A DNA stretch of 51,886 bases from the IMG/VR virus record IMGVR_UViG_3300030380_004241, positions 1-51,886 of that record, one strand, 5' to 3'. This stretch comes from a virus. Shown in pieces: positions 3,032-35,318 of the stretch. The stretch's first letter is position 1. The number at the start of each line of letters is the position of its first letter. The position numbers and the translations under genes are program-made. The notes under the pieces are model-generated. The model was not told the DNA's origin. It made no database searches and was given only the letters and a program-made list of their open reading frames with translations.

Positions 3032-3255
3032 CCCCAGTCTTTCTTGTGACCCATCTCTTCATTTTCATCATACCCAGCATTGTAGGCTTCAACTTCTTCA
3101 GGAGTCAGGTCATTGATCTCCTCAAAAAACTGGCGACCTGTCACCTCTTCAGTTGAGGCGATGATCTTGTGAGGACTCCGAGGGCGATGATAGTAAGAGT
3201 CAGCTCCCCCTCTGTCAAAAGGAGAGCCATGACCTTTGTCGTAATCCTTGCTCAT
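3028..3255 (-). CDS. Small hypothetical acidic protein
   Basis: This 75-residue protein was not recognised. The N-terminus is Gly/Asp/Arg/His-rich and looks disordered, and the C-terminal half is acidic and helical (EEINDLTPEEVEAYNAGYDE). A GGAG sits 8 bases before the ATG. Both ends overlap neighbours by 4 bp, so it is translationally coupled between the OB-fold-like protein and the SNF2-like helicase. A role as helicase accessory factor would be a guess. Confidence 0.6.
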   Translation of the reverse strand: MSKDYDKGHGSPFDRGGADSYYHRPRSPHKIIASTEEVTGRQFFEEINDLTPEEVEAYNAGYDENEEMGHKKDWG

Positions 3256-4056: not shown

Positions 4057-4139
4057 TAGTATCGGCTTTTTTGGCACAAAAGGCAACAAAAAAATTGAAA
4101 GAAAGTGATATTTGTTTCCTTTGTTTTCAAGGACTTATG
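4057..4139 (-). promoter_or_regulatory. Leftward early promoter region, copy A
   Basis: Read on the minus strand it has TTGCCT (4086-4081), an 18-base spacer and ATACTA (4062-4057). Upstream of the -35 is a stretch shared with copies B, C and D (CACTTTCTTTC, then AAGTCCTTG near 4139). The spacer holds an imperfect GGCTTTT/AAAAGGC inverted repeat. It lies ahead of the OB-fold-like gene. The 4140-4182 gap shows nothing else. Confidence 0.6.
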
Positions 4140-4182
4140 TTTTTCTTCCTCAACGAGTGGTTGCATTGGGCAATGCAGTGTG

Positions 4183-4602
4183 TTAGTCCCAAGCATAAAA
4201 TATGTGGTCGTTGATGCGGACTGTCATGTGTTTTGATTGAGCCCAAGAGGGATTGACATAGTAGGCATGATAGTGGGTGGCACCTTCTGTTGGGTCATAT
4301 GTCCTGCCTGTTATTGCACCAAACGATATCATCTTTGCCATTGTGTAGGCGTCTCGGTCTGTAGGCTTGTCAGACTTCCCATCGCAGTAAAAGCTGAATT
4401 GACATTTGTGGCGGATTGGGTAGTTGGTTTTCCATTTGTAGGTTGGTCCCTGCTTCACGACTTGACAAATTGTGTTTGGGTAGCGGTGATCTTCAACCCT
4501 GTTCAATATAACATGAGCCACAGCTGACTGACCGACAAGAGGCTCACCCCTCGCCTCAAAGTAAACTGCCATCGCCATGCATGTGAGTGCTGCTTCAATC
4601 AT
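4183..4602 (-). CDS. SleB-like cell-wall hydrolase (Hydrolase_2)
   Basis: The 139-residue protein has the hallmark AVYFEARGEP with the catalytic Glu, then VAHVILNRV, conserved Tyr-Pro (RYPNTICQVVKQ) and CQFSFYCDGKSD, as in the SleB/CwlJ lytic transglycosylase-like family. No signal peptide is visible. It cuts peptidoglycan in known relatives. It is unusual that it lies in the early leftward block and not beside the GH108 endolysin and holins of the late block. It carries the TGAGAAAGG leader (4610-4620 on the plus strand). Alternatives to a lysis role are an accessory wall hydrolase used late in infection or one loaded into virions. Confidence 0.85.
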   Translation of the reverse strand: MIEAALTCMAMAVYFEARGEPLVGQSAVAHVILNRVEDHRYPNTICQVVKQGPTYKWKTNYPIRHKCQFSFYCDGKSDKPTDRDAYTMAKMISFGAITGRTYDPTEGATHYHAYYVNPSWAQSKHMTVRINDHIFYAWD

Positions 4603-4788
4603 ATTTTTACCTTTCTCAGTTGGTGGGGTGCTTTTTCTTCAACATATGCCGTCGCACCCCTAAACAGCATATGCCTACACCTATGTCACTGCATGTCTTA
4701 CAACGCATATCGCTTCGCATAGGCACTCCACGAATCAGAATCTGGCGAGCAGTTTTGCCACATGCTCAGGTGGGTTCCCTTTCAGTGG

Positions 4789-5304
4789 TTAGTTGCTGGC
4801 TGCAGCCAGTGGTTCAATCAGCCAAGTGTCTTCGCTCTTGGGATCGAACTTCGGGTTCTCAACCACAAAGTAGTTGTGGACGAGCTTGTTCTTGTGCTTG
4901 GTCGCTTCCATCGCGATCCATGCGTCAGGGTTCTGGTTGTCAATGGTCGTGAAGTCACGAGTGTCAACAACGATGAAATGCTTGGTGATCTGAATCACAT
5001 ACACCTTGCCAGGAAGAAGAAGCTTGAGGAAGTTCTCGAGCTTCATCTTTGACTTGTTTCCAGCACCGACGCTTGAGATCGGGTACCACTTGCCTTTAAC
5101 GCCAAACTTTGCGCAAGACTTCTGCAGGTCAGAGTTGCTTATGCCTTTGGCATGACGCTTGCCACGAACACGCTTGGCAACCTGATAGGCTGGCTCATAT
5201 CCAGTTCCGCAAACAGTGGCAATGGCGTATGGACCACACCAAGTTTTGCGTTGGTTACCGATCCAATCAGTAACAGGGCGACGGGTTGGAGTATGTTTTT
5301 CCAT
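4789..5304 (-). CDS. C39-like papain-fold cysteine peptidase
   Basis: The 171-residue protein has a candidate catalytic Cys in TWCGPYAIATV (residue about 23), a His in KHFIVVD (about 109) and an Asp/Asn in TIDNQ shortly after. This is the Cys-His-Asp order of C39-like and transglutaminase-like papain folds. No signal peptide or membrane helix is visible. It is the first gene behind promoter copy B and carries the TGAGAAAGGA leader. A host- or phage-protein-processing peptidase or a peptidoglycan amidase are both possible, and the neighbouring SleB-like hydrolase makes a wall-related role attractive. The 4603-4788 gap downstream holds no convincing gene. Confidence 0.65.
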   Translation of the reverse strand: MEKHTPTRRPVTDWIGNQRKTWCGPYAIATVCGTGYEPAYQVAKRVRGKRHAKGISNSDLQKSCAKFGVKGKWYPISSVGAGNKSKMKLENFLKLLLPGKVYVIQITKHFIVVDTRDFTTIDNQNPDAWIAMEATKHKNKLVHNYFVVENPKFDPKSEDTWLIEPLAAASN

Positions 5305-5339
5305 GATGATTTCCTTTCTCAGTAATTCCTAACTCTTGT

Positions 5340-5421
5340 TAGTATCGCCTTTTCTGGGATAAAAGGCAACAAAAAAATAACAAGAAAGTGATTTTTCTTT
5401 TCAGCGAAAACAAAGACTTAT
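5340..5421 (-). promoter_or_regulatory. Leftward early promoter region, copy B
   Basis: On the minus strand TTGCCT (5369-5364) is followed by an 18-base spacer and ATACTA (5345-5340). The spacer and flanks form a perfect GCCTTTT-N7-AAAAGGC inverted repeat. Upstream is CTGAAAAGAAAAATCACTTT, nearly the same as in copies C and D. It overlaps the last bases of the polymerase gene and drives the C39-like peptidase and SleB-like hydrolase. Confidence 0.65.
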
Positions 5422-8231
5422 GTCAACTTACGAACTTTCTCTACATATATTTTTCTGAATCCTTGTCTGATCTGACCTTTTACCAAGTACCAATCACCAA
5501 GCCTTCCGTCCTCAACGATTGGCTTACCCATGCGTGAATATTTGAAGCGATCAATGGTTGCAATGATTGGGCCAGTGTCATCCTCAAAAGTTAAGTTGAG
5601 CCACAGATTATTCTTATCAACCCTGCGACCACCACGCTTGGCAAGGTTGACAGTCTCGTTCATGTCTCTCAAGTTTTTCTCTTTGAGCTTGCCGAAAAAC
5701 ACAAATGTTCCTGGAGTGTCAGCATCAAGCTCTTGAATGTCAGTTATGGCAGAAACTATGTTGTGCGAGGCAGGATCAGCCTTGATATGCCCGAACCTCC
5801 TCTCACACTCAAAAATATCGTCGTAGGGTGTTGTACCGTTGTCCAGGAGCGACTCTTGCCGAGGAGTCAGAGGTTGTGCCATCTCACGTCTGTTAACGAT
5901 GTCCTCAGCCATTTTTGGACCGATACCTTTGATGCCCATCAATCCACCTATCAGAGCACCATCCTGCACAGACCAGTTCTGGGTTGACTTGAATTTGTCA
6001 AATGGCTTGTAGCTGAGACCTTCCTTGACGACCTCACGCAAAAGCCTGACTGCTTGTTCGTCATCTTTGACGTTGCGCAAACATGCTGCGGCAAACTCCA
6101 GGGGGAACTTGCTCTTGAGTACGCAACACCAGTAGCTGACCATGCCATATGCGATGGCGTGTGATCTGTTGAATGCCCATGAGCCCATTGTGTTGATGTT
6201 GTCCCAGATGCGTTGGGCTTGATCTTCTTCAATATCATTCTCAGCTGCACCAACTTTGAACCTTTCCCAAAAGGTATCAAAATATTCTTTTCCGTATGAC
6301 TTGGACATTGCTTTGCGGAGGGTTGATACATCTTCCCATGAGAGCTTACCCACATCTCTGGCTATTGTCATGACTTGTTCCTGATACACAACAACACCAT
6401 TGGTGACCTTTGTGATTGTCTCAGTCATTGGGTGAAGATACTCAACAGGCGATGAGCCGACATGCCTTTTGATAAACTGAGTTGTGCCACCTGAGTTGAG
6501 TGGTCCAGGACGAGCCAAAGCAGTAATCGCTGCAATGTCTTCAAACTTGTGCACTTTCATCTGCCTTGTCACTGACTGAAGAGCATAGCCTTCAAACTGA
6601 AAAATACCTGCGTACTTTTCATCATTCAAAACTTTGAATGCCTCCTCATCCTCAAGAGGATAGTTGATCAGCTGATCACGAGTCCAACCGACTTGATCAA
6701 GCACATCTTGCAAAACTGAAAGAGTCCTCAGCCCCAAGGCATCAATCTTCAGCAGATTAAGATCCTCAGCATCCTTTTTGTCAATCTGGGTTGCACCTGT
6801 CTGACCTGATACAGAACAATACTGACTAACAGGCTTTTCAGTGACAATGATCCCTGCGGCATGAACACCATTGTGACGTGCATGGTTCTCCATGTCTGCG
6901 GCAACTTTGATCTGTGGGTACTTTTCCAAGACCTGCCGACCAATGTCAAGTTCGTTGAATGTATCAAGTATGCAAAATGCAGCACGAGAGTCGCCAGAGC
7001 TTCTTTCAATGATTGCACCTTTGAGATCATTTACCTCCCAAGCAGGTATGCCTAGCTCTTTGGCAACTTCTGCGATTGTGCTTTTGGCTTTGTAGCGTGA
7101 CACAGTTCCGAGGTGAGCAACCTTTTCCGCTCCATACTTTTGCCTCAGATACTCAAACACCATCTCTCTGCGGTCGTCTTGAAAGTCAATATCAATGTCG
7201 GGTAAGTCCTCACGAGTGATGTCAATGAATCGTTCAAACAACAAGTCATGCTCAATCGGGTCAATGTCAGTGATGCCAGTGAGGTAGCAAACCAATGAGC
7301 CAGACGATGAGCCTCGTGCTGGCCCAACGAGCATGTGTTGCTTGGCGTAGTTGATCATGTCAGCGATAACATAAAAGTAGTCCTCAAACTCTTTGTCAGC
7401 GATGAGGTTCAACTCTCGGTCAAGACGAGCTTTGTAAACTGGGTCGCTGAGATCAATGTTGCGAGGTGGTGCACCTTCCTCACACATTTGGCGTAAAGTC
7501 TTTTCAGCAACAAATGAAACCATCTGCGCAGTTGGCAACTCTGCGTTGCACATCTCGGCAATCTTGTAGGTGTTCTCAATGGCTGACTCTGGTGCCCATG
7601 GCACTGCGTCTCGCCACTCCCATTCATTCATTATGTGCATGGGTGCTGTGCGGTCTGTTCGGTTGCGACCAACCAGAACTTCATATGCCTTGCGGTCTTG
7701 CACTGTTGGGTAAAAGTTGTCTGAGGTTGCTACGACTTGAAAGCCTTTTTTCTCTGCAAAGTCCAAAGCCTTGCGAGTGCTCATTGGATTCAACTCAATA
7801 TAAAGAGTTTCTTTTTTGGCCAAAGGGAGCAGTCCCCAATCTGGGTTGGTTCCGCTCAAAATGATGACATTGTCGCTGATGTCAAACAAGTCCTCATAGC
7901 TCAGGCGAGGGTGATAATAAAAATGATCTTTGTCGGTGCTCTTTGTCACCAACTGATATATCTCTGTCAAGCCATCATTGTTCTTGGCAATGAAAGCCAT
8001 ATCGTTTGCGGGTTGCTTTGTCCGCTCAGTTGCATCTTCAACTATCGGTATCTCAACCCCAAGCAAAGGCTTCTTGTCAGCCTTTTTGCAGGCATGCTCA
8101 AAATTCACATGACCCCAAGTGCCAGAGTCGCATATACCGATAGCCGAACCACCGACAGAGTCAATGACTTTCTGCAGTGGTCCGTATGCTTTGCGGAAGC
8201 AGTATTCTGTTCTGGTGCGTATGTTCAACAT
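5418..8231 (-). CDS. dnaE: DNA polymerase III alpha-like (family C) replicative polymerase
   Basis: The protein has 937 residues, shorter than the 1160 of E. coli DnaE. Catalytic aspartates are in LPDIDIDF (about residue 343) and KIDALGLRTL (about 493), with GPARGSSSGSLVCYL ahead of them and helix-hairpin-helix GIKGIGPKMAEDI and an OB-like C-terminus behind. The N-terminal PHP domain is degenerate: the usual His-x-His is missing (IRTRTEY) and the DHG motif reads DSG, so it is probably not a nuclease. Proofreading would come from the DnaQ-like gene just upstream. The start chosen at 8231 overlaps the preceding stop as TAATG and begins MLNIRTRTEY. A longer reading from 8333 adds residues unlike the family. 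Confidence 0.92.
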   Translation of the reverse strand: MLNIRTRTEYCFRKAYGPLQKVIDSVGGSAIGICDSGTWGHVNFEHACKKADKKPLLGVEIPIVEDATERTKQPANDMAFIAKNNDGLTEIYQLVTKSTDKDHFYYHPRLSYEDLFDISDNVIILSGTNPDWGLLPLAKKETLYIELNPMSTRKALDFAEKKGFQVVATSDNFYPTVQDRKAYEVLVGRNRTDRTAPMHIMNEWEWRDAVPWAPESAIENTYKIAEMCNAELPTAQMVSFVAEKTLRQMCEEGAPPRNIDLSDPVYKARLDRELNLIADKEFEDYFYVIADMINYAKQHMLVGPARGSSSGSLVCYLTGITDIDPIEHDLLFERFIDITREDLPDIDIDFQDDRREMVFEYLRQKYGAEKVAHLGTVSRYKAKSTIAEVAKELGIPAWEVNDLKGAIIERSSGDSRAAFCILDTFNELDIGRQVLEKYPQIKVAADMENHARHNGVHAAGIIVTEKPVSQYCSVSGQTGATQIDKKDAEDLNLLKIDALGLRTLSVLQDVLDQVGWTRDQLINYPLEDEEAFKVLNDEKYAGIFQFEGYALQSVTRQMKVHKFEDIAAITALARPGPLNSGGTTQFIKRHVGSSPVEYLHPMTETITKVTNGVVVYQEQVMTIARDVGKLSWEDVSTLRKAMSKSYGKEYFDTFWERFKVGAAENDIEEDQAQRIWDNINTMGSWAFNRSHAIAYGMVSYWCCVLKSKFPLEFAAACLRNVKDDEQAVRLLREVVKEGLSYKPFDKFKSTQNWSVQDGALIGGLMGIKGIGPKMAEDIVNRREMAQPLTPRQESLLDNGTTPYDDIFECERRFGHIKADPASHNIVSAITDIQELDADTPGTFVFFGKLKEKNLRDMNETVNLAKRGGRRVDKNNLWLNLTFEDDTGPIIATIDRFKYSRMGKPIVEDGRLGDWYLVKGQIRQGFRKIYVEKVRKLT

Positions 8232-8302
8232 TATTGAAGTGCTGCTTTGATCAGAATGAAAACCAATGCCCCGACGATTGAGCCTATTGTTGCTGGATCC
8301 AT
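8231..8302 (-). CDS. 23-residue putative membrane peptide between exonuclease and polymerase
   Basis: This tiny frame begins MDPATIGSIVGALVFIL and ends KAALQ, a single hydrophobic helix with polar ends. Its ATG overlaps the exonuclease stop as TAATG (8300-8304), and its own stop overlaps the polymerase ATG in the same way (8229-8233). It fills the 68-bp gap exactly and lies in a frame different from the polymerase. The tiling at both ends argues for real translation, either as a product or as a coupling device for polymerase synthesis. There is no recognised family. Confidence 0.6.
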   Translation of the reverse strand: MDPATIGSIVGALVFILIKAALQ

Positions 8303-8835
8303 TAGATGTGTCCCTCCTTTTTGTACCATTCAATTATGCGCACAGTTGCTTCAACGTCATTGATTGACCTGTGCGCTCCGTCAATCTTAGTTCCAAAAAG
8401 CTCCTCATGTATATCCCCGAGCTTTTTCTTTTTGCCCCAAACAGACTCACCAACCTCAACTGTGCAGATGTGATCATATGGCCATGGGAACTTTGTCAGC
8501 TTGTCAAGTCGTTCCAATTCAAACTTTAATATCTTGCGATCAAAAGGCAAGTTATGAGCGACGATTGTTTTCTCACCCAAAAAGAAATCACAAAGCCTGT
8601 AGTAACTAGCTATGAATGGCTTTTCATCTTTCAACATCTCGTCTGTGATGTTTGTGATCTTGATAATCTGCGGATCAAGCTGGTGCCCAGGATTGCAGAA
8701 GAACTCCAACCTATCAACTTCTTTCAAATCATCGTCGAGCTTGATAGCACCAAACTCAATGATGCGAGGTTGAATGTCTAGGTCAGAACCTTCGGCTTTG
8801 GGCAAACCTGTGGTCTCTAGGTCAAACACTATCAT
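8302..8835 (-). CDS. DnaQ-like 3'-5' exonuclease (DEDDh)
   Basis: The 177-residue protein opens with FDLETTG (Asp5, Glu7), then IIEFGAI, the second motif AHNLPFDRK and the third motif AHRSINDVEAT with the His and final Asp. These are the four acidic residues and general-base His of DEDDh exonucleases. It stands upstream of the family C polymerase and a membrane peptide, all tightly coupled, so it most likely proofreads for that polymerase, replacing the lost PHP activity. Its start lies inside the upstream gene's 3' end (14-bp overlap). Confidence 0.9.
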   Translation of the reverse strand: MIVFDLETTGLPKAEGSDLDIQPRIIEFGAIKLDDDLKEVDRLEFFCNPGHQLDPQIIKITNITDEMLKDEKPFIASYYRLCDFFLGEKTIVAHNLPFDRKILKFELERLDKLTKFPWPYDHICTVEVGESVWGKKKKLGDIHEELFGTKIDGAHRSINDVEATVRIIEWYKKEGHI

Positions 8836-9190
8836 CTTGTTCCCCTAGCTTGTTTGAGTCCAGAGCTTCAAGCATGAATGAATACACACCTGTGTCATGA
8901 ACCGAGTCAATAGTGCTCTCGCTGACGTTTGGCCAGTTCTGAGCATATCGGGTCAACTTGGCAACGATCATATTGACGATCCCGAATCTGTTCCAATCCT
9001 CAACTGTTTTAAGCTGAATGCCTTTGGGGAACAGAGCAGTCATGACCTGACCATGGGTCAGGTAGTTGTCGCCATATTGCTTGTTGCGTTGTTTGAATGT
9101 GCGAAGAGCTTCCTCGATGCAATCAATCGGGTGTTTGTTCTTCAGACTCTCTTTGCTCGTATCCTTCTTGACGACCTTTTTCCGTGCCAT
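8822..9190 (-). CDS. MazG/DUF6378-like putative nucleotide pyrophosphohydrolase
   Basis: Starting at the ATG preceded by AAGGAG at 6 bases gives 122 residues; an upstream frame to 9229 is less likely. The N-terminus is Lys-rich. The body reads ALRTFKQRNKQYGDN, then VNMIVAKLTRYA and DSVHDTGVYSFMLEAL, which is the helical pattern with spaced acidic residues seen in small phage proteins related to MazG. Relatives hydrolyse nucleoside triphosphates, which would fit its place among nucleotide and repair genes. The catalytic set is not fully clear, so the enzyme call is tentative. It overlaps the next upstream gene by 68 bp. Confidence 0.6.
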   Translation of the reverse strand: MARKKVVKKDTSKESLKNKHPIDCIEEALRTFKQRNKQYGDNYLTHGQVMTALFPKGIQLKTVEDWNRFGIVNMIVAKLTRYAQNWPNVSESTIDSVHDTGVYSFMLEALDSNKLGEQDDSV

Positions 9191-9380
9191 GTTCTTCTCC
9201 TTCCTCATATCCTTTTTCATAAGCCTCATCTATCTTGGCTTGTATTTCTTCTTCAGGTATGCTTGCTCTGTCTATCGCATCTTTCAACTGGTCAAGCAAT
9301 GTTGGTCTGATGTCAAATATGCGAGCAACCTTTTCCCTGTTAACTTCTATGTCGTTCCCGATTATCCTAATATCAACCAT
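9123..9380 (-). CDS. Small hypothetical charged helical protein
   Basis: This 85-residue protein was not recognised. The first 30 residues look like a compact alpha/beta start (MVDIRIIGNDIEVNREKVA). The rest is a strongly charged helix rich in Glu, Lys and Gly (EAYEKGYEEGEEHGTEKG). The start at 9380 overlaps the stop of the HAD gene as TGATG and has CAGGAGA upstream; a start at 9410 would run deep into the HAD gene. The 3' part overlaps the MazG-like gene by 68 bp, an unusually long same-strand overlap. Confidence 0.55.
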   Translation of the reverse strand: MVDIRIIGNDIEVNREKVARIFDIRPTLLDQLKDAIDRASIPEEEIQAKIDEAYEKGYEEGEEHGTEKGRQEGYEQRESEEQTPD

Positions 9381-9814
9381 CAGAAATCTCCTGGAGCTAC
9401 TTGCAGACAAGTGAGACCTTCACCTCTCCACATATCAACGACTGACTGTCTGTCCTCAAGCACGAACCAAATGTCTGACTCTTCAATGTGCTTTTGCATC
9501 AACTTCAGTTTACAAAAGTCATCAGACGATTGATCGTCAGCAGGTCTCATGATTAGCCTGTCACAAGGCACATCGTTCAGCCTCAGCCACTTGGCTGTGT
9601 CTTTGCGATGGCTCTCATCACGAGCAGTCATGATAACGATCTCAACCTCCCCACTGTGAAGTGCACGCAAAATGTTGCAGACATTTTCAATCGGCTTGTC
9701 GTTGATGCCTGCGGCATTGAATGCTTCATAATCACGCTCTTTGTAAAACTTCAAGCGATGCCCATAGTCGGAAAGTGTGCCATCAAGATCACATATGATT
9801 ATACGCTTGCCCAT
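9380..9814 (-). CDS. HAD-superfamily phosphatase
   Basis: The 144-residue protein has HAD motif I CDLDGTLSD with nucleophile Asp9 and acid/base Asp11, motif II IVIMTARDES, and a late acidic motif FVLEDRQSVVDMWR. Length and motifs match the phosphatase half of T4-type polynucleotide kinase and small phage 5'-nucleotidase-like HADs. The substrate could be a 3'-phosphate DNA end or a nucleotide. GGAGG stands before the ATG. It lies in a run of overlapping nucleotide and repair genes. Confidence 0.85.
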   Translation of the reverse strand: MGKRIIICDLDGTLSDYGHRLKFYKERDYEAFNAAGINDKPIENVCNILRALHSGEVEIVIMTARDESHRKDTAKWLRLNDVPCDRLIMRPADDQSSDDFCKLKLMQKHIEESDIWFVLEDRQSVVDMWRGEGLTCLQVAPGDF

Positions 9815-10308
9815 GCTGGTGCCTCCGTATATTTGTATGTCCCGTTTTGAATGTGACCGATCTTCTCACCGACATAATAGTTGCGGTAAGACTGAACAGG
9901 GTCATCGACCTTGTATTGATCTGGCATGCCCAAATGAGGAGCAGTCAGGTCAGCAAAAGGTATGTTGTTGGGCAACTTGTTAAGGGCAGGGATCAGCGAT
10001 GCATGCTTGTGGTTGACTGGCTCTTTTTTCTTTGAGCCATAACGCTGATAATATTCCTTGGCGAGTTGCGTGACCATAACCAGAAGCCAGTTGTAGTTGG
10101 CTGCTGACTTCCTCACCCACTTTGAGCAAGGGTGGTTCTCGTAACCCATCGGGAACATGCCGACCTCGTCAGCATACTCATCGCCATCCAAGAACCTATG
10201 CGCACAACAAAGCATGAGCACAGACTCTGATATCATCTTATAAGAGTGCACGTCGCAGTGCATCTTTGCAGCGACAACAGGGTCGTCATCTAAGTAAAAT
10301 ATGTTCAT
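9799..10308 (-). CDS. Pyrimidine-dimer DNA glycosylase-like protein
   Basis: The 169-residue protein begins MNIFYLDDDPVVAAKMHCDV, then SYKMISESVLMLCCAHR, HPCSKWVRKSAANYNWLL and EYYQRYG. This pattern (YLDxDP, HC(D)xH/Y, HPxxxW, NYxWL) is shared by a broad phage family often annotated as pyrimidine dimer DNA glycosylase. The C-terminal GMPDQYKVDDPVQSYRNYY is also typical. Repair of UV damage would be useful to a phage in sunlit water, but activity has not been shown for most of this family. The TGAGAAAGGAAA leader precedes it. Confidence 0.7.
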   Translation of the reverse strand: MNIFYLDDDPVVAAKMHCDVHSYKMISESVLMLCCAHRFLDGDEYADEVGMFPMGYENHPCSKWVRKSAANYNWLLVMVTQLAKEYYQRYGSKKKEPVNHKHASLIPALNKLPNNIPFADLTAPHLGMPDQYKVDDPVQSYRNYYVGEKIGHIQNGTYKYTEAPAWASV

Positions 10309-10358
10309 CTCATTTTCCTTTCTCAGTATGTTTACTTTACTCTTTTTGAGTTGTCAGA

Positions 10359-10658
10359 TCAAGCCTTCATCCCGAGAATCTTCTTTACACGACGAATCAC
10401 TTTATTGGCGAATGACACAGCTTCTTGAGTTTGCTGATACATCGCTTCAAGCTCTTTTTCTCTCTTTGGAGCTGGTGCTCTGGCGACGATGTTCTCTTTG
10501 GGCGATGGCTCTTTTTGATACAAGATGTATGAAAGCTGATTCTTAGTCAGCCCGAGCTTTTTCCCTATTGTGCTGTGGCTCTCACCAAGCTGTTTCATGT
10601 AATGAGCTTTATTGATTGTCTCTTGCTTGTATGAAGCTGAAAAACTTTTTTTAGGCAT
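10359..10658 (-). CDS. Helix-turn-helix DNA-binding protein
   Basis: The 99-residue basic protein has a homeodomain-like helix-turn-helix (QETINKAHYMKQLGESHSTI then KKLGLTKNQLSYIL) at about 10-45, a Pro-rich linker and a coiled-coil-like C-terminus. The domain order resembles transposase-type or phage regulator HTH proteins. TAGGAGGT gives a strong ribosome site. It is one of few candidate regulators in the genome and could read the conserved promoter repeats, but that is a guess. Confidence 0.7.
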   Translation of the reverse strand: MPKKSFSASYKQETINKAHYMKQLGESHSTIGKKLGLTKNQLSYILYQKEPSPKENIVARAPAPKREKELEAMYQQTQEAVSFANKVIRRVKKILGMKA

Positions 10659-10667
10659 TGATACCTC

Positions 10668-11312
10668 CTATTTGTTGAGTGCTTTGTACATTGATGGTGC
10701 TGCCCACTCAGTTGGGGTCAGGAAAGGCAAAGCCCAAGGGTGGACTTTTGTTACCTCTGCGACCATGAGTTTGAACACCTCTTGGTATTCACCTTGCGCT
10801 CTGGGCGACAGGCGAGACTTAGCCATCTCACTCAGTGTGCGCAGGTTGAATTTGGCAACGATGTTGGTATGAATGTTTGTTGGCAAAACGCCACGCGCAT
10901 CTTCAGCAGGAACAATGTCACGCAGTGCTTGGTAGGCTTCATTGATCTGCTTCATCGCATCATCATACAAAGCCTTGGCAACCTCATTCTCAGAGATGCG
11001 AGGTGGCGTGTAATATCCGAAGCCATGCATGTCGACTGTGCGTTGGGACTGCTGGGCATATGATGCTTGACGTGTTCGCACGAACTGATGGGTGAATCCT
11101 CTGCTGACATCACGGATGTTGAATGTGTAGTCAATGAACTCCCAAGATGAGCGGATTGTCTTGAGCATGTAGTCAAGCTCCTCCTGCTTTTTCTCCTCAG
11201 TCCATTCAGAGACCTTTGCGTAGGCATCTTCATCATTCATGAGGCGAGTGTTCTTCGTGAAGATGAGCAGGTTCACTGCATCATCGGTGTAATTTATAAG
11301 TTGGACTTTCAT
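10668..11312 (-). CDS. thyX: Flavin-dependent thymidylate synthase ThyX
   Basis: The 214-residue protein has the ThyX signature around residues 79-91: RTRQASYAQQSQR, which is RHR-x7-S with His replaced by Thr, then HGFGYYTPP. The FTHQFVRTRQAS context is as in other phage ThyX proteins. The enzyme makes dTMP from dUMP using FAD, NADPH and methylene-tetrahydrofolate. It sits next to a FAD-binding oxidoreductase and near a MazG-like and a HAD gene, forming a nucleotide supply group. A variant of the leader (CTCAGAAAGG) precedes the start. Confidence 0.93.
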   Translation of the reverse strand: MKVQLINYTDDAVNLLIFTKNTRLMNDEDAYAKVSEWTEEKKQEELDYMLKTIRSSWEFIDYTFNIRDVSRGFTHQFVRTRQASYAQQSQRTVDMHGFGYYTPPRISENEVAKALYDDAMKQINEAYQALRDIVPAEDARGVLPTNIHTNIVAKFNLRTLSEMAKSRLSPRAQGEYQEVFKLMVAEVTKVHPWALPFLTPTEWAAPSMYKALNK

Positions 11313-11313
11313 G

Positions 11314-12258: not shown

Positions 12259-12554
12259 ATGTTTAGCTCCTCACGCTTTTTGTTCTTCACTGCATAGAAG
12301 CCTTTTTTAGTCAGACCTTTGTCCATGTAGCTTTCTCGGTTGTCCATCCAGTGACCATACAAAACCTCATCAGTCTTTTCAATCAACTCTGGGTTTGCGT
12401 TGCCACCATGCTTCATAAGTTGGTCTCGGAGAATGCGGAGCAACTCATGCTGCTCCTTTTCTGCATTCATGAACCAAGTTTGATTGAGTCCTTCCCACAG
12501 CATGAAAACCTGCTTGGGGGTCAGATTAAGTTTGCAGATCCAACCCGAACTCAT
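12252..12554 (-). CDS. Hypothetical helical protein
   Basis: This 100-residue protein was not recognised. It reads MSSGWICKLNLTPKQVFMLW, then a run of helices with many Glu/Lys and a basic tail. The start at 12554 overlaps the upstream stop as ATGA; extension to 12590 would overlap 40 bp and lacks a ribosome site. The stop overlaps the FAD gene start. Its close coupling to the FAD enzyme suggests a shared pathway. Confidence 0.65.
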   Translation of the reverse strand: MSSGWICKLNLTPKQVFMLWEGLNQTWFMNAEKEQHELLRILRDQLMKHGGNANPELIEKTDEVLYGHWMDNRESYMDKGLTKKGFYAVKNKKREELNIC

Positions 12555-13123
12555 CCTGAGACCTCTGCGTAGCCTTTGTTGATGTCCCAAGCAAGATCCT
12601 GACGACGACCACCTTGAGCGATGTAGGCTTCATAGCTCACAGGCTCACCAGCATTGATCAGGATGCCCATGGAATGGAAGCCATGAGTGTTCTGACGACG
12701 AGGGTTCTTGTCAACAAGACACTTGATCATCTTGCCTTCAAAGCCAGAGTTGCGACCACGCTTCTTGGGTGCGTCTGCAGTTTTGACGTGAACCTCAACA
12801 TCATTCCGCTGCTCAGTATTCATTTGTTTCTCTCCATTGAGTTTTTCAAAAGGTGTCTCTTCAATTGGCAGAGACTCAGCCAACTTCATTATGCGCTTTG
12901 AACCTGCGCGAATGTCCGAAAACCTTTTAACCACACCACTCCCAATCAAACGAGCATTGTCGTTGAAAACTGCGACGAGGCGTTGGTGGGTGGTGTTGCG
13001 GTTTTGGGCAAGCTCCTCAGGTGAGGAAAAGACTACCAACCCATTGCCCATCTGACGAGCTACACGCTCAGAGCTGAACGCACGGATGGTATTTTTCTTG
13101 TAGTCAATAGCGAATGCTTTCAT
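12551..13123 (-). CDS. Hypothetical protein, first gene behind promoter copy C
   Basis: The 190-residue protein was not recognised. Residues 1-90 look folded (MKAFAIDYKKNTIRAFSS, QRLVAVFNDNARLIGSGVVK). A Lys/Arg-rich linker (KKRGRNSGFEGK) at about 118-130 is followed by a short domain with HGFHSMGILINAG and GGRRQDLAWDINKGYA. The leader TTGAGAAAGGAAA lies 10 bases before ATG, so early strong expression is likely. The Lys-rich linker could bind nucleic acid. Confidence 0.65.
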   Translation of the reverse strand: MKAFAIDYKKNTIRAFSSERVARQMGNGLVVFSSPEELAQNRNTTHQRLVAVFNDNARLIGSGVVKRFSDIRAGSKRIMKLAESLPIEETPFEKLNGEKQMNTEQRNDVEVHVKTADAPKKRGRNSGFEGKMIKCLVDKNPRRQNTHGFHSMGILINAGEPVSYEAYIAQGGRRQDLAWDINKGYAEVSG

Positions 13124-13172
13124 TGTTTCGTTTCCTTTCTCAAATCAGCCAGAACTTTCCTGACTGTCCCAT

Positions 13173-13245
13173 TACTATGCGCCAATTTGTCACAAAAGGC
13201 AACAAAGAAAGTGATTTTTCTTTTCAGTATTTTCAAAGACTTATA
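13173..13245 (-). promoter_or_regulatory. Leftward early promoter region, copy C
   Basis: On the minus strand TTGCCT (13202-13197), an 18-base spacer and ATAGTA (13178-13173) match copies A and B in spacing. The upstream part CTGAAAAGAAAAATCACTTT is identical to copy B over 20 bases. The spacer keeps the outer GCC/GGC pairs of the palindrome. It precedes the 12551-13123 gene and fills most of the gap to the UvrD-like gene. Confidence 0.62.
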
Positions 13246-13258
13246 AATTTTTACGAAA

Positions 13259-14719
13259 TTAAATTGCATAGTGCCTCAAACTTTTTGGCCTTACGATGAA
13301 CAAGTTTTCTTTCGCTCTGGTCAATGCAACATACCAGACTCTGTTCTCTTCATCTGTGTGAGAGTTCTCCCAACTTAGCCGACCCATGTCCGTAGCCAAA
13401 ACAACATTGTCAGCTTCACCACCTTTGGACTGGTGGATGGTTGAGATGCTTATGCGAGGCTTGTCAGAAAACTTTTCGCCATTGCGCAAGCATGACCTTA
13501 AATATTCTCTTTCGTCTGGGGCAATGCCTTTGAGCATGCTCATCCAATCAAAGTTCTTGGCATCCTCAGGCAGACCCAAGTCTGTCATTTTGTAAGACTC
13601 TTGGCGAACTAGGTTGACAGTAAACCCGAAAAACTGTTTCACATTTTTGGCTTCATGAAGTGAGACTGATTGACCTTTGCGCAACCTTTCCCAAGTCATG
13701 ATCGCACGAGTCTCATCTGACTCAAGAGAGTGCTTGCCGTTGTAGGTGTATGCGAAGCCTTGTTGCCGAACTGCTTGCTGAAACCTGTTCATGAGATATT
13801 TACTTCGGCTCAAACACATCCAACTTCCATTGCCTGAAAAGTCTATCTGCTGTTCATCAGCCACATAGTCAACTGTGCCTTCATCAGTTCTTGGTCGCCA
13901 TGGCTTTGGGTAACGATGCCTGATGCGACTCACAACTTCTGCAGCCAACTTGTGGACTGATCTTGGGATGCGATAGCTTTGAGGCAGAACCATGCGGTCG
14001 CCTTTCAAAGTCAAAAATTTATTAACGTCTGCACCTGCCCAGCCAAAGATGGCTTGGTCGTCATCGCCAGCAATATAAACTTCCTCAGCACCCTCAGCTG
14101 CAATAATAGCCATTTTGTATTGAAGAGAGCTCAAGTCTTGAGCCTCGTCAAAAATGCAAATGTCAACAGGTAAAGGTGATGCGTACTTTTCCAACATGTC
14201 AGTGAAGTCCAACAGCCCATTTTCACGCTTGTAAGTTCTGAGGGCAGTGTCGTACTGTTTCACTGCATGCAAGGTCAGGTCATTAATGTTTGTTAGGTTG
14301 TGTTGTGTTTCAAGATCTCTCAGCCCAACCCTCGCCAAAGATTCAATCCTTGAACATTTGTCACCAAGCCCATCGCCAGTGTGAATTCCTAAGTCCTCAT
14401 CGTAGATGCCTTTGAACTCAACACCCAAAGCTCTGCCTAACTTGCGATAGTGTGCATTGGTCATAACCTCGTCTCTTTGCATGCCCAGCTCTCTGAATGC
14501 TAAAGAGTGTAGTGTTCTGAAGTAAGGAAACCTTCCCTCATCAAAACCAAACTGAGCCATCGCCCTTTCTTGGGCTTCGTATGCAGCTTTGCGGGTGAAA
14601 GCCAGATACGCTATTCTCTCAGGAGGAATCCCACGAGCTAGTGCGTCTTCGACTATGCGAAGCAGAGTTGTGGTTTTGCCTGTTCCTGGAGGTCCAAGAA
14701 TTATTTGTACTCTTCTCAC
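13259..14719 (-). CDS. UvrD/PcrA-like SF1 helicase
   Basis: From a GTG start at 14719 (preceded by GAGAAAGGAAACGAAA) the protein has 486 residues. Motifs in order: Walker A LGPPGTGKTTT, Ia YLAFTRKAAYEAQ, II IFDEAQDLS, III IAGDDDQAIFGWAGAD, IV-like LPQSYRIP, V ISTIHQSKGGEADNVVL and VI VWYVALTRAKENL. This is a full SF1A 3'-5' helicase, shorter than UvrD (about 720). It is probably the main unwinding enzyme or a repair helicase, as no DnaB-like gene is present. The longer reading to 14761 lies within the zinc-ribbon gene and lacks a ribosome site. Confidence 0.92.
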   Translation of the reverse strand: MRRVQIILGPPGTGKTTTLLRIVEDALARGIPPERIAYLAFTRKAAYEAQERAMAQFGFDEGRFPYFRTLHSLAFRELGMQRDEVMTNAHYRKLGRALGVEFKGIYDEDLGIHTGDGLGDKCSRIESLARVGLRDLETQHNLTNINDLTLHAVKQYDTALRTYKRENGLLDFTDMLEKYASPLPVDICIFDEAQDLSSLQYKMAIIAAEGAEEVYIAGDDDQAIFGWAGADVNKFLTLKGDRMVLPQSYRIPRSVHKLAAEVVSRIRHRYPKPWRPRTDEGTVDYVADEQQIDFSGNGSWMCLSRSKYLMNRFQQAVRQQGFAYTYNGKHSLESDETRAIMTWERLRKGQSVSLHEAKNVKQFFGFTVNLVRQESYKMTDLGLPEDAKNFDWMSMLKGIAPDEREYLRSCLRNGEKFSDKPRISISTIHQSKGGEADNVVLATDMGRLSWENSHTDEENRVWYVALTRAKENLFIVRPKSLRHYAI

Positions 14720-14867
14720 TTTCGTTTCCTTTCTCAGAAAGCACATGGTGACATGCGCCACATTTTATTTTGGTCGGCTCTTTTTTCCAGATCCTTCCAC
14801 GAGTCATTGCACCGCAGAAGTCGCAGCTTATGAATGAGCTGTAATATCTTTCATACTCATCGCTCAA
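14619..14867 (-). CDS. Small zinc-ribbon protein with TTG start
   Basis: The 82-residue frame has two Cys pairs, SCDFCGAM and IKCGACHHVL, forming a zinc ribbon in the first 45 residues, then a Ser/Arg-rich tail. The TTG start overlaps the primase stop (TTGA) and has GGAGG 7 bases upstream, so translation is well supported. The last 101 bases overlap the helicase gene, so the tail is probably an unstructured by-product of that overlap. Zinc ribbons next to primases often help bind DNA; here that is inference. Confidence 0.6.
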   Translation of the reverse strand: MSDEYERYYSSFISCDFCGAMTRGRIWKKEPTKIKCGACHHVLSEKGNESEKSTNNSWTSRNRQNHNSASHSRRRTSSWDSS

Positions 14868-16402
14868 AAATTTTCCTCCACTGTTGTCGGTATGTCAAGT
14901 TGATCTTCCTCGTCATAAAAATCAGGCGCAGGCACTGACCATACCTTAACTGGTTTTGACTTGATGCGAAATGTTTTTCTGTCACCACCCAAGCTTCTGA
15001 GCCATGACCAAACTTGGTGTTGGGAGGGATATCTGAATCTGCGTGCATCAAGATATATAAAAAGGTCTTCAGAGCGGAAATAAACTTTGCCCTCATCAGA
15101 GTCGTGCCAAGGCTTAGCATTCATGATCTCATCACGATGACGAGCTTGGACTTTGCCAGTCAGGAATGAGTCAAGCATCTTTTCAAACTGACCTTGTGGG
15201 CTGGCGTCGTCTGGGTCAATGACAACCTCAACAGACCCCAACAGTTCATTGATACGTTGCTCCCATCTTTGAGCAGGCATTGTGCTTGGGCACTTGTTCA
15301 GCTTCTCAACACAAAGCCTTTGGAGCTGACGTTGATCGAGAAGCTGTTGTGTAGTTACTTCTATCCGCTCACCTTGAATTTCAATGTACCATCTGACTGA
15401 TTGTCTGTTTTCAGTTTCATACTTCGTGATAGCGTCAATCTCTATGGCTTGGCCACCACCAATACCGCCGACCCCAAACTCACGCTTCATGCATTTGCTT
15501 TTTTCGCAGTAGTTGCATATGGGTGCTTGTTTGCAGGTGTAGGCATAATCTTTTTTGGAGACTGACTTGATCAAGCCATTGACCTCGCCACTGGGCAGTG
15601 GCTCAGGCAAATGCTCATAGTTGAAGCGCATCAAATCTTCTTGCCAGTCGTCAGGATTCTTTTTTCGGTAATAAACACCCACATTGAACAAAGAGATGTT
15701 TCTTCCACCTTCAGGAAAGCCCATTGTCATGATGTGTTGAAGGCATGGTGGACCATCCTCAAACATGTTGATCAAATCAGGCTTAAAATTTTCCAAAGCA
15801 TCAAAGTCTGTCCGCTTTGATTCAGCATGAGCTATGAATTGTTTTAGGTTGAGTGGTTTGCCTTTGTGTATGGCATAGCGTTCAGTTTCATCGCCATCCC
15901 AATAGCAAAGGTTGATCCAGTTGCCTCTGTCACGTTCATTGGCACGTGAGATCTGCTTTGGAAAAATCTCAGCACCACCATAACCCAAAGTTGCGGCAAA
16001 CTCATTCAGCTTGGCAACCATGTCAATCGCTGCAATTGCAGGCTCACAGAATAAATAAAGATGCGCACCGCCAGACTTACTACGGCACAAAACTAGTGGG
16101 GTGGCTTCAATCTTCTTTTCAAGATCTTCGAGCGACTCATTCAACTTAACATCACCTCTGATGTCTATGTCTATGACACCAAAGTTACATGAATTGTTTT
16201 CACGCAACATAATGATGCCGAGTATGTAGTCGCCACCTTTGAGATGAGCTTCAAAATGTTCAGATGTTGCAGGTTCAGCTACAGTTACTGCCCGACCAGA
16301 CATCTTTCCGTCAGCTTCTTTTTTTTGAACCCGATATTCACCATGAGCTTTTTCATAGCCACGAAACAGGTTCATAAATTTTTTAATTGTTTGGGAGTCC
16401 AT
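14864..16402 (-). CDS. TOTE-type archaeo-eukaryotic primase
   Basis: The 512-residue protein's primase core near the N-terminus has the metal-binding FGVIDIDIRG (two Asp at about 78 and 80), then SKSGGAHLYLF with the catalytic His (about 114), as in AEP primases of the TOTE group. A Cys cluster at CKQAPICNYCEKSKC forms a likely zinc or Fe-S site in the middle, and the C-terminal third is a helical domain typical of phage primase proteins. The start at 16402 follows TCAGAAAGGAACTCAC; the upstream frame to 16435 enters a hairpin. It makes RNA or DNA primers for the DnaE-like polymerase. Confidence 0.85.
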   Translation of the reverse strand: MDSQTIKKFMNLFRGYEKAHGEYRVQKKEADGKMSGRAVTVAEPATSEHFEAHLKGGDYILGIIMLRENNSCNFGVIDIDIRGDVKLNESLEDLEKKIEATPLVLCRSKSGGAHLYLFCEPAIAAIDMVAKLNEFAATLGYGGAEIFPKQISRANERDRGNWINLCYWDGDETERYAIHKGKPLNLKQFIAHAESKRTDFDALENFKPDLINMFEDGPPCLQHIMTMGFPEGGRNISLFNVGVYYRKKNPDDWQEDLMRFNYEHLPEPLPSGEVNGLIKSVSKKDYAYTCKQAPICNYCEKSKCMKREFGVGGIGGGQAIEIDAITKYETENRQSVRWYIEIQGERIEVTTQQLLDQRQLQRLCVEKLNKCPSTMPAQRWEQRINELLGSVEVVIDPDDASPQGQFEKMLDSFLTGKVQARHRDEIMNAKPWHDSDEGKVYFRSEDLFIYLDARRFRYPSQHQVWSWLRSLGGDRKTFRIKSKPVKVWSVPAPDFYDEEDQLDIPTTVEENF

Positions 16403-16424
16403 GTGAGTTCCTTTCTGAGTCGTC

Positions 16425-16466
16425 GGGAGGGGCAAGAGGTGATCCCCAAAAGGGAATGCCCCTCCC
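16425..16466 (-). other. Strong G-rich mRNA hairpin before the primase gene
   Basis: GGGAGGGGCA (16425-16434) pairs perfectly with TGCCCCTCCC (16457-16466), and the loop holds a smaller TCCC/GGGA stem. There is no T-run after it, so it is not a classic terminator. It lies between the SSB-like and primase genes and could stabilise the upstream message, attenuate transcription or limit primase expression. Confidence 0.7.
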
Positions 16467-16468
16467 TA

Positions 16469-16503
16469 GATGATGTAATGCGTCCGTGCTACATTACATC
16501 ATC
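16469..16503 (-). repeat. 12-bp perfect inverted repeat built from the SSB-like C-terminus
   Basis: GATGATGTAATG (16469-16480) is the exact reverse complement of 16492-16503, with an 11-base loop. The right arm codes the last four residues (acidic DDVM) of the SSB-like gene, and the stop lies in the loop. Together with the neighbouring G-rich stem it forms a two-hairpin structure right after that gene. Confidence 0.75.
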
Positions 16504-17277
16504 GTCTACAGACTCAGGAGAAACTTTCACATCACCAGCTGCAATTTCAGTTTTGAATTTGCGTGCGGCAAGATAAATTTCTTGACCTTGTGGGTGGTTC
16601 TGAATGATGCCCCCAGACTGTGCGTCATGGTTCATCTTAATAGACCAACCAAACCACGAGCCTTGATCATTCTCCTCAGGCACAGTTGTTAGCTGATATG
16701 AAGTCCAGAATGATGCTGGGTTGACCTTTTGATCACCAACTTTGATCATGAGGCGATTCATCATTGAGTTCCACTGACGAGCTTTTTTCAACTGCGACTT
16801 TGCCATTGAAAGTAGGGCTGGTGTGTAACCATTCTCATCAATCAAGAACACGAAGTATTCACCAGTGGGCACAATCTCATTGCCCTCATCAGTCAGATAC
16901 TCACCCCGACCACCACGAGTGCAGTTTTCAAGGCAAGCAGAGTCAGCACCGTGATCAGCGACCAAGCCACCTCTGTCTGCTTTCCATTCAATGTGTGCAC
17001 GTCTGTAGCTGATCGGCACGACTGTGATACCTTTTTCACCATCAATCGCTAGGTTGGCTACATTGTCCATGATCATTCCTGGCTCAGCACCATCAATGTA
17101 TGAACCATGACGCTTGTTAACTTGATCAGACATTTGTTGCAGAATCGTCAGGCGAGGAATAAGCATGTCCTCTTTGGTCATGCCTTCAGTTCCTGCTCCT
17201 GCATCCTGGAGCAAAATGCTCTCATCAAAAGCCACTACGTTTGATTCTTCTTTCTTTGCTACTTTATTTTCAGCCAT
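16489..17277 (-). CDS. Putative single-stranded-DNA-binding protein analogue
   Basis: The 262-residue protein has no recognised SSB family. The N-terminus is charged and flexible. The core is rich in beta-like and aromatic stretches (GITVVPISYRRAHIEW, GEYFVFLIDENGYTPALLSM, SFWTSYQLTTV), and the end is acidic (SPESVDDDVM), as in proteins that recruit partners through a tail. A four-Cys/His-like patch (ACLENCTRGG) is visible. It lies directly upstream of the primase, has an AAGGAG ribosome site and is followed by two hairpins. I recall similar proteins in podophage replication modules. SSB function is inferred from context and tail. Confidence 0.55.
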   Translation of the reverse strand: MAENKVAKKEESNVVAFDESILLQDAGAGTEGMTKEDMLIPRLTILQQMSDQVNKRHGSYIDGAEPGMIMDNVANLAIDGEKGITVVPISYRRAHIEWKADRGGLVADHGADSACLENCTRGGRGEYLTDEGNEIVPTGEYFVFLIDENGYTPALLSMAKSQLKKARQWNSMMNRLMIKVGDQKVNPASFWTSYQLTTVPEENDQGSWFGWSIKMNHDAQSGGIIQNHPQGQEIYLAARKFKTEIAAGDVKVSPESVDDDVM

Positions 17278-17281
17278 GTTA

Positions 17282-17872
17282 CTATCTCCTTATGTTGGCT
17301 CTGCGTCCCATGTAAACACGGAACATTTCTATTGGAACATCCTTGCCTTCACTCAACCTCTCCCTAAGAGTGGCATTCAGCGATGAAGGATGGACTCCGA
17401 CTGCACGTTTGTAATAAAGTTTTTTCTCACGCAACTCTTCAGTGAAGGCATTGCATTTGTCATCTTCATTACGACCAAACTGAACCTCAACATTGCTTTT
17501 GATTAAATCACCAAGACCATTGTCCCGCAACCAATCAAAGCACTGCTGTTGGAGTATCCTCATTGCCTCTTTTTCATCCTCATCCTTGATACGATCAATC
17601 GCACCTTGTGATGGGACAGAGCCTTGGATAACATCTTTGACTTCAATCTTTGCACCATTGTTCAAAGTAAAGTCTTTGATGTTCAGTTCTTGCATCAAGT
17701 CAGGCAAGTCCTGTTCCGCCAACATCTTGAGATCCTGCTTCTTTTGCTTCAATGACTCGTCAAGTTTGTTAATCTCATTTTCAAGATCATACATTCTTTG
17801 AGCCATATCAGCGATCGCACCAAGTTCATTGGATGCTGGTGCCACATCCTCAAGCAGATCTATATCTGTCAT
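17282..17872 (-). CDS. Coiled-coil phage protein of replication module
   Basis: The 196-residue protein has a long heptad-like coiled coil at about 20-65 (MYDLENEINKLDESLKQKKQ) followed by an alpha/beta part (FTLNNGAKIEVKDVIQGSV, FDWLRDNGLGDLIKSNVEV) and a basic C-terminus (GRRANIRR). Similar proteins occur beside single-strand-binding or recombination genes of other phages, with no assigned activity. The TGAGAAAGGA leader precedes it. A recombination or replication accessory role is likely but unproven. Confidence 0.65.
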   Translation of the reverse strand: MTDIDLLEDVAPASNELGAIADMAQRMYDLENEINKLDESLKQKKQDLKMLAEQDLPDLMQELNIKDFTLNNGAKIEVKDVIQGSVPSQGAIDRIKDEDEKEAMRILQQQCFDWLRDNGLGDLIKSNVEVQFGRNEDDKCNAFTEELREKKLYYKRAVGVHPSSLNATLRERLSEGKDVPIEMFRVYMGRRANIRR

Positions 17873-18236
17873 AGTCTTCCTTTCTCAGTTCGAGAGCTAC
17901 AGGCATGTACCAACCTTTTCGGCGATCCCTTTCACCCTCATCATTGTTACGCTCCCAGCGGAGCACTCTTACAGTGTTAGCCTTTTCACTGGCGATCATA
18001 CACGTGATCATCACAGCGATCGGGTCACCACCTCCTGGCCAGAGAAGATAATCCTCTGACGAGAAGTCCCTCATGATTCGACGAGCTTTTTGGACGCTTG
18101 GTCCTGGCAAAAACTGTGGTTTGTCATTGGGCTCAAAAACAATCTCAAGCGAGCCATATCTGCTGGCATCACTCAAGTCTGGCACCCAACCAAACTTATT
18201 TTTCACAGGTCGATTCACTACATAAACTTTTGGCAT
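17850..18236 (-). CDS. Hypothetical protein
   Basis: This 128-residue protein was not recognised. It is rich in Arg and Asp with segments PKVYVVNRPVKNKFGW, GSLEIVFEPNDKPQFLPGP and DYLLWPGGGDPIAVMI, suggesting a compact alpha/beta fold. The 3' end overlaps the next gene by 23 bp. The TGAGAAAGGAAA leader stands before ATG. The position near the promoter end suggests early expression. Confidence 0.65.
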   Translation of the reverse strand: MPKVYVVNRPVKNKFGWVPDLSDASRYGSLEIVFEPNDKPQFLPGPSVQKARRIMRDFSSEDYLLWPGGGDPIAVMITCMIASEKANTVRVLRWERNNDEGERDRRKGWYMPVALELRKEDYDRYRSA

Positions 18237-18249
18237 CGTTTTTCCTTTC

Positions 18250-18582
18250 TCAGTGTATCCCTAGGTCTTTTAAGTCTTGCCCAGAAAACATTGCCTCTTC
18301 AAGTTCTTCATCAGACATCATATCAATTTGATTTATGGCTTGTCTGCGTTTCATCCTAGCAAGCCTTTTGTTCATTTGAGCTTTCTTTGCTCGCTTGATG
18401 TCAACTTTTGGCTTTGGCTTCACAGCCTTTTGTTTGACAGGCTTGTTATAAAAAATCTCAACTGTATGAAAAACAAAATTGCAACCTTGGCACCTACGTT
18501 TACGCACTGTAGAAAAGTCGTCATCACGAGGTCGTGAATCACAGACTAAACTTTTTGTACAATCGCACTTTGGGCATTTCAT
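18250..18582 (-). CDS. NrdR-like zinc-ribbon protein without ATP-cone
   Basis: The first 45 residues closely follow the N-terminal zinc ribbon of NrdR: MKCPKC, then VCDSRPRDDD, VRKRRCQGCNFVFHTVE, with four Cys in two CxxC pairs. NrdR represses ribonucleotide reductase genes, and its ATP-cone senses nucleotides. Here the ATP-cone is replaced by a Lys/Arg-rich linker and a short acidic helix (SDEELEEAMFSGQDL). The total is 110 residues against about 150 for NrdR. It is the first gene of the leftward block and has the TGAGAAAGGA leader. It may act as a DNA-binding regulator of phage or host genes. Confidence 0.75.
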   Translation of the reverse strand: MKCPKCDCTKSLVCDSRPRDDDFSTVRKRRCQGCNFVFHTVEIFYNKPVKQKAVKPKPKVDIKRAKKAQMNKRLARMKRRQAINQIDMMSDEELEEAMFSGQDLKDLGIH

Positions 18583-18591
18583 AGGTTGCTT

Positions 18592-18601
18592 CCTTTCTCA
18601 G
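18592..18601 (-). promoter_or_regulatory. TGAGAAAGGA leader motif (representative of 13 copies)
   Basis: The ten bases CTGAGAAAGG lie 9 or so bases before the ATG at 18582. The same motif (allowing one or two changes) occurs before the minus genes starting at 4022, 4602, 5304, 10308, 11312, 13123, 14719, 16402, 17872, 18236 and 18582, and before the plus genes at 19030 (19013-19022) and 19613 (19596-19605). AAAGGA is a Shine-Dalgarno core, but the TGAG part is outside the usual pairing. No late gene carries it. Confidence 0.75.
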
Positions 18602-18653
18602 TTAAAATTACTATGCCTGAAAACAAAACAAATGAAAAGAAGTTTTTTTCAAA

Positions 18654-18797
18654 GAAACCAATCGCGAAACCAAAGAACCCAAAAAAACTGGTTTCGGCAT
18701 TTTTGGACCCCGTATTGCATGACCTTTTATATAAGGGGAAAATCCATGTGTGTGTTGTGTTGTGAAAAATTTCAGGATTTGTGGTTTCGTTGGTTTC
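18654..18797. repeat. Five GAAACCA motifs in two orientations
   Basis: GAAACCA occurs at 18654-18660 and 18666-18672. Its reverse complement TGGTTTC occurs at 18689-18695, 18782-18788 and 18791-18797. Three of the inner copies extend to CCGAAACCA-like sequence. A sixth copy lies before the terminase gene (20747-20753). The spacing (12 and 9 bp within pairs) is near one helical turn, as for a protein-binding array or origin iterons. Confidence 0.5.
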
Positions 18798-18902
18798 GGC
18801 TTTGTCTAAGTTCTTGGAATAAAAAATGAAAATGGGCGTTCCCAAACTCAAAAACCATCGGAAACGCAACCCAGTCTTTGGGAACTTTTTTCGTAAAAGT
18901 TT

Positions 18903-18984
18903 GTAAGTCCTTGATATGCCTGAAAAGAAAAATCAGTTTCTTGGAACTTTTTTGTTGCTTTTTGTGACAGAAAGAGAGAGAATA
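18903..18984 (+). promoter_or_regulatory. Rightward early promoter region, copy D
   Basis: On the plus strand it repeats the order of copies A-C: AAGTCCTTG, CTGAAAAGAAAAATCAGTTTC, TTTTTTGTTGC, TTTTGTGACA. TTGCTT (18955-18960) is followed by 18 bases and AGAATA (18979-18984), a weaker -10, and the spacer palindrome is lost. It lies 45 bp before the first rightward gene. It is the only copy on the plus strand. Confidence 0.55.
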
Positions 18985-35266: not shown

Positions 35267-35318
35267 TCAACTCAACCCTGACTGCTTCGGCAGACAATAG
35301 CCAAGACAGGAGATTGAT

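Follow-up and report, generated by a model that had tools for sequence, protein, structure and literature searches.

Promoters that carry an IHF site are known from phages lambda and Mu. Lambda pL reportedly combines an upstream IHF site with a distant UP element, an arrangement that Giladi et al. are said to have described in 1998, and the early promoter Pe of Mu likewise has an IHF site. In the alphaproteobacterium Caulobacter, a gene transfer agent of phage origin has sigma-70 promoters that require IHF (PMC11150451), and in the IS5/glpFK system of E. coli an IHF site together with A-tracts activates the promoter with 10-bp, not 5-bp, phasing (PMC2753651). The published IHF consensus is WATCARNNNNTTR (PMC8421141, PMC9519438), and strong IHF sites have an A-tract on the WATCAR side (PMC8421141; also PMC9519438). 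Our literature search found no paper joining IHF and roseophages. Here, we describe a repeated composite promoter in an uncultured marine phage and its relatives, consisting of a sigma-70 core and an upstream IHF-like box.

The stretch of DNA analysed (hereafter, the window) is a virus record of 51,886 bases that probably represents one complete genome, since it has a direct terminal repeat of 101 bases (positions 1-101 and 51786-51886, 99% identical)—the repeat itself being the product of either circular assembly or terminal redundancy. The source is a marine tailed phage of a widespread, largely uncultivated clade, from which we collected viral-contig loci by homology, 80 via the DNA polymerase and 80 via the large terminase. 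Isolated roseophages CRP-901 and CRP-902 (OQ401623.1/OQ401624.1; isolation host, Roseobacter sp. FZCC0083) match the window at 73-83% identity in their terminase, portal and capsid genes, the terminase at 78%. The replication (polymerase) module of the window has no match in these two genomes, which carry another replication module, a pattern of common structural genes and unmatched replication genes that amounts to a module exchange. The TerL identity of 78% to these roseophages suggests Roseobacter as the host; a scan of provirus and host genomes with the DNA polymerase yielded nothing but polymerases from other bacteria, at ~30% identity. The genome holds other features of note. An Rfam RF03012 (Mu-gpT-DE RNA) match above the gathering score lies at 35276-35321 (+), just 3' of gene 34326-35234, which encodes a gpT-like major capsid protein. 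Within ORF 36998-37951, the stretch 37337-37884 contains repeats at intervals of mostly 60 bases, which encode GVAGTGA-type repeated segments. Additionally, three adjacent ORFs at 16489-18236 (-), which all near-complete relatives retain, match the Pfam families for gp34, gp33 and gp32 of phage Pam3.

A sequence-only reading of the window had described one long pattern shared by four regions at operon heads on both strands, and all four copies were located as claimed, aligning over ~85-95 bases. Scored over 73 fixed positions with copy 2 as the reference, copy 1 matched at 58 positions, copy 4 at 57 and copy 3 at 55; 30 first-order resamplings of the window gave best scores of 36-40. Moreover, a two-block model learned from the relatives and run on the window returned exactly these four full copies. 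The view of them as multi-copy promoters at operon heads is supported. Their parts, together with one promoter that lacks the upstream box, are as follows.

4125..4137, minus strand: copy 1 IHF-like box TAAGTCCTTGAAA, the complement of which fits WATCARNNNNTTR at 8/9 defined positions
4081..4086, minus strand: copy 1 -35, TTGCCT
4058..4063, minus strand: copy 1 -10, GATACT, after a 17-bp spacer; leads ORF 3252-4022 and the helicase 1340-3031
5408..5420, minus strand: copy 2 IHF-like box TAAGTCTTTGTTT, fitting at 8/9 positions
5384..5402, minus strand: copy 2 A/T tract and conserved GAAAAGAAAAATCACTTTC, in the interval from box to -35
5364..5369, minus strand: copy 2 -35, TTGCCT
5341..5346, minus strand: copy 2 -10, GATACT; leads ORF 4789-5304
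13231..13243, minus strand: copy 3 IHF-like box TAAGTCTTTGAAA, fitting at 8/9 and lying 10 bp nearer its -10 than the other three boxes do
13197..13202, minus strand: copy 3 -35, TTGCCT
13174..13179, minus strand: copy 3 -10, CATAGT; leads ORF 12551-13123 and the ThyX-like/HTH/DNA polymerase operon
18904..18916, plus strand: copy 4 IHF-like box TAAGTCCTTGATA, a full match (9/9)
18955..18960, plus strand: copy 4 -35, TTGCTT
18978..18983, plus strand: copy 4 -10, GAGAAT; leads the rightward block from ATG 19030
18610..18638, minus strand: boxless core promoter of the same general type, TTTTCA-17 bp-CATAGT; leads the leftward operon from 18582

Closer alignment refined the pattern in several respects. 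The four copies do align, but copy 3 is shorter than the others, with exactly 10 bp—one helical turn—missing between CACTTTC and TTTGTTGCC. The conserved blocks are present, but CTGAAAAGAAAAATCACTTT and TTGTTGCCTTTTGTGACA, which had been given as parts of them, differ among the copies (AAAGGAAACAAATATCACTTT in copy 1, TTTTATCCCA in copy 2). An 18-base spacer to ATACTA or ATAGTA had also been proposed for the leftward copies; these hexamers do mark the -10 of copies 1-3 (GATACT, GATACT and CATAGT), the core being better read with a 17-bp spacer. Each core, TTGCCT or TTGCTT followed after 17 bp by GATACT (copies 1 and 2), CATAGT (copy 3) or GAGAAT (copy 4), has the 16-18 bp spacing near a ribosome site that characterizes sigma-70 promoters, with a Shine-Dalgarno GAGAAAGGA downstream and then an ATG (4022, 5304, 13123 and 19030). 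A generic promoter consensus scan did not list these cores at its threshold because their -35 and -10 hexamers are both imperfect. The box of copy 2 opens with TAA, and this triplet is at the same time the stop codon that ends ORF 5418-8333, the DNA polymerase gene.

Not every operon is headed by one of the four copies: the leftward operon starting at 18582 has the boxless core listed above, with a relative in G001. The description of the operons as early follows from their gene content and is to be taken as a suggestion; copy 4 heads the rightward block, which runs into structural genes. A nine-pair terminator-like stem with a T-run at 20668-20690 (+), which separates the small rightward genes from the gene for the small terminase subunit, overlaps a possible promoter, TTTTCT-17-AATAAT. 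The divergent intergenic region contains CCCAGTCTTTGGGAACTTTTTT at 18870-18891, with similar sequences in relatives (CCAGAGTCTGGAAACTTTTTT in G005); it could be an operator, part of an origin or a terminator. No known RNA family was found in the four copy regions. We rejected an RNA hairpin or inverted repeat in GAAAAGAAAAATCACTTTCTT, the complementary arms of which occur in the window copies only and are lost, as judged by eye, in relatives, and also an Ogr-type site, TGT-N12-ACA, in which the ACA is not conserved.

The composite promoter recurs across the clade. With the two-block model, it was found in ~70 distinct IMG/VR relative sequences, and the same model matched nothing on reversed sequence; scoring the core only returned 152 distinct sequences, or 63 once close copies were removed. 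The training set of the core model was the promoters found via the upstream block, and the class of promoters with a box-to--10 distance of 54-55 lies outside that set. Near-complete relatives carry ~3-5 copies per genome, mostly with AGAAAGGA next downstream, and a composite promoter directly follows the DNA polymerase gene in all 74 of the 74 scorable relatives' loci. The scan of related phages that had been proposed as a check of the conserved blocks shows that relatives with the same genes retain them. No such promoter was detected above background in CRP-901 and CRP-902, and the promoter scan of more distant polymerase relatives (Cronobacter and Vibrio phages) gave nothing clearly above the null.

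Conservation upstream of the -35 exceeds what a plain sigma-70 promoter needs, as the sequence-only reading had stated, and implies a protein that binds there. The upstream block consists of an asymmetric box, TAAGTCnTTGwTTT, in fixed orientation, followed by an A/T tract; upstream of it we detected no further conserved block, only A/T richness, with an enrichment at -10 to -3 relative to the box that could constitute a distant UP element. The reverse complement of the box, AAAwCAAnGACTTA, fits the IHF consensus apart from a frequent A in place of the T of ATC. In the 45 promoters with a good box, A1, A2, T7, T8 and G9 are invariant or nearly so, A/T-only positions coming next, and these five are among the positions that IHF defines. 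The IHF core YAAN4TTG lies upstream of 45 of the 63 non-redundant cores (shuffles: mean 5.7, maximum 12) and in the opposite orientation in 1 of 63 upstream regions, and the full site YAAN4YTGATW, with nine positions, occurs in 14 of 63 (shuffles: mean 0.5, maximum 2). The box does not conform to a textbook E. coli IHF site because G3 and T4 are more conserved than N4 of IHF requires and position 10 is mostly T (28/45, against 16/45 with the expected A). A4/T4 runs in the relatives' promoters begin mostly 24-26 bp from the start of the box on the promoter side, which is the side expected of a strong IHF site. At the H' site of lambda, the A-tract is ~3 bp nearer. We also considered AATCACTTTCTTG as the IHF site and rejected it, since it is either variable or, in the 54-55 class, falls on the -35; the constant part is the upstream box.

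The distances from box to -10 fall mainly into the classes 54-55, 62-65 and 74-75, one helical turn apart, and minority distances of 67-68, 71, 77 and 79 include the off-phase classes 67-68 and 79. Among the weak assignments in the range 67-79, some boxes may be misplaced. A period of 10.1-10.2 bp fits best (R 0.66-0.75, n 35-43); p-values of 1e-8 for this phase are overstated because the sequences are related, and a strict non-redundant set of 11 promoters gave p ~0.02-0.03. The polymerase tree shows ~10 changes of spacing class, five of them by whole turns and ~four not. On the terminase tree, by comparison, nearly all spacing changes among the orthologues of copy 4 are of ~10 or 20 bp—as exemplified by the clean 10-bp step between the window (d=74) and L085, L087 and L088 (d=64), of which L085 and L087 have terminases 96-97% identical to that of the window. 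Both trees together show whole-turn steps in ~10 of 15 large changes versus 30% expected for random sizes, with a rough p of 0.004 for what is a post hoc count.

We consider it probable, at roughly 60%, that these are sigma-70 promoters stimulated by host IHF at the upstream box in the manner of lambda pL or Mu Pe. Under such a mechanism, host IHF would bind TAAGTCnTTGwTTT and the downstream A/T tract and bend the DNA sharply; the bend would lay the upstream A/T-rich DNA on RNA polymerase, probably on its alpha C-terminal domains, and this contact would stimulate a weak core with imperfect -35 and -10 elements. Several operons could be switched on at once by a protein already in the cell, and the distance from box to core would shift mostly by whole turns because the bend must face the polymerase. 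On the searches that follow, a host factor is the simplest reading of what may bind the box. No phage IHF/HU (PF00216) was found in the window or in seven relatives, in a search that was positive in control genomes, Caulobacter included, and homology and family searches of the early region returned no sigma factor, RNA polymerase or polymerase modifier. The proposal of a recognition element particular to the phage, with the HTH protein (10359-10658) or the NrdR-like protein (18250-18582) as its binder, was not supported: the box resembles the host IHF site, and neither protein turned up in every box-bearing genome. The NrdR-like protein of the window, which matches in the zinc-ribbon part only (33 bits, far below the NrdR equivalog cut-off of 124.65), was detected in just 4 of the 21 records that we searched, and weakly in one of these. 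An iterated profile search detected HTH homologs in 13 of 17 records, those of the relatives and the window, and none in G008 and G009, which are near-complete and promoter-bearing and could possibly carry a diverged homolog.

A phage-encoded activator, made early or virion-borne, might nevertheless bind the box and recruit host RNA polymerase, as in the regulon model of the sequence-only reading. The excess conservation of G3 and T4, the confinement of the box to one phage clade, and proteins of unknown function that occur in every near-complete box-bearing genome and are absent from CRP-901 and CRP-902 (e.g., ORFs 17850-18236, which is Pam3 gp32-like, 17282-17872 and 12551-13123) all speak in its favor; yet the nearly invariant bases and the side of the A-tract are those of IHF, the two named candidates do not qualify as universal factors, and an activator expressed from such a promoter would itself need another start-up route. 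On balance, we regard such an activator as improbable, though it is the main rival explanation. The element could also act with no dedicated protein, as a long curved UP element of phased A-tracts touched by the alpha C-terminal domains, or through another host nucleoid protein. The recurrent A/T-only positions upstream of the -35 and the T-run just upstream of it in many copies would suit this reading, and phase-dependent action of bent A-tract DNA is known (PMC2753651). Nevertheless, an element of shape alone would not require invariant box bases, and we see nearly invariant bases outside any A-tract (TAAGT..TTG), in one orientation and up to ~86 bp from the start site, which makes this explanation unlikely. 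Phages commonly carry multi-copy operators at operon heads, and the conserved blocks might by that token be operators for a repressor that shuts the operons later in infection; in this case, however, the box is asymmetric rather than palindromic and keeps to preferred helical spacings, 54-79 bp ahead of the -10, and no integrase or lysogeny gene is among the proteins searched, so that we give this possibility very little credence.

If stimulation by host IHF is indeed at work, IHF-aided promoters of the lambda pL and Mu Pe style would extend to a marine phage group, as a multi-operon regulon. For the clade as a whole, we would only tentatively suggest, with the odds somewhat against it, that these phages use host IHF as a ready-made activator of several operons, with a bend site shifting mostly by whole turns, or else that an undescribed phage activator has converged on an IHF-like site. 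The natural spacing variants are a ready experiment on bend phase control of a bacterial promoter, and the motif allows operon starts to be predicted in uncultured phages.

Set against the described systems, one close parallel is with lambda pL, likewise a phage sigma-70 promoter with an IHF-type site ~80 bp upstream and A/T-rich DNA farther upstream that a bend could deliver to the alpha-CTD. Unlike in lambda, the unit is repeated ~3-5 times per genome across the clade, its distance from the core differs between promoters, for the most part in whole turns, and binding by IHF is predicted. Mu Pe, an early promoter, also has an IHF-type site upstream of a phage sigma-70 core; Mu differs in having a single such promoter tied to repressor operators, whereas no operator array is seen in this phage. 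The promoters of the Caulobacter gene transfer agent resemble those described here in their alphaproteobacterial setting (presumed for our phage), in serving phage-derived genes, in using sigma-70 and in having an IHF-type site that separates DNA far upstream from a poor -35, but they require GafY bound upstream at -123 to -113. Finally, IS5/glpFK has in common with our promoters an IHF-type site combined with A-tracts, which in E. coli acts only in the right helical phase; there, however, the arrangement is a single chromosomal insertion with its site >200 bp away and no phage regulon.
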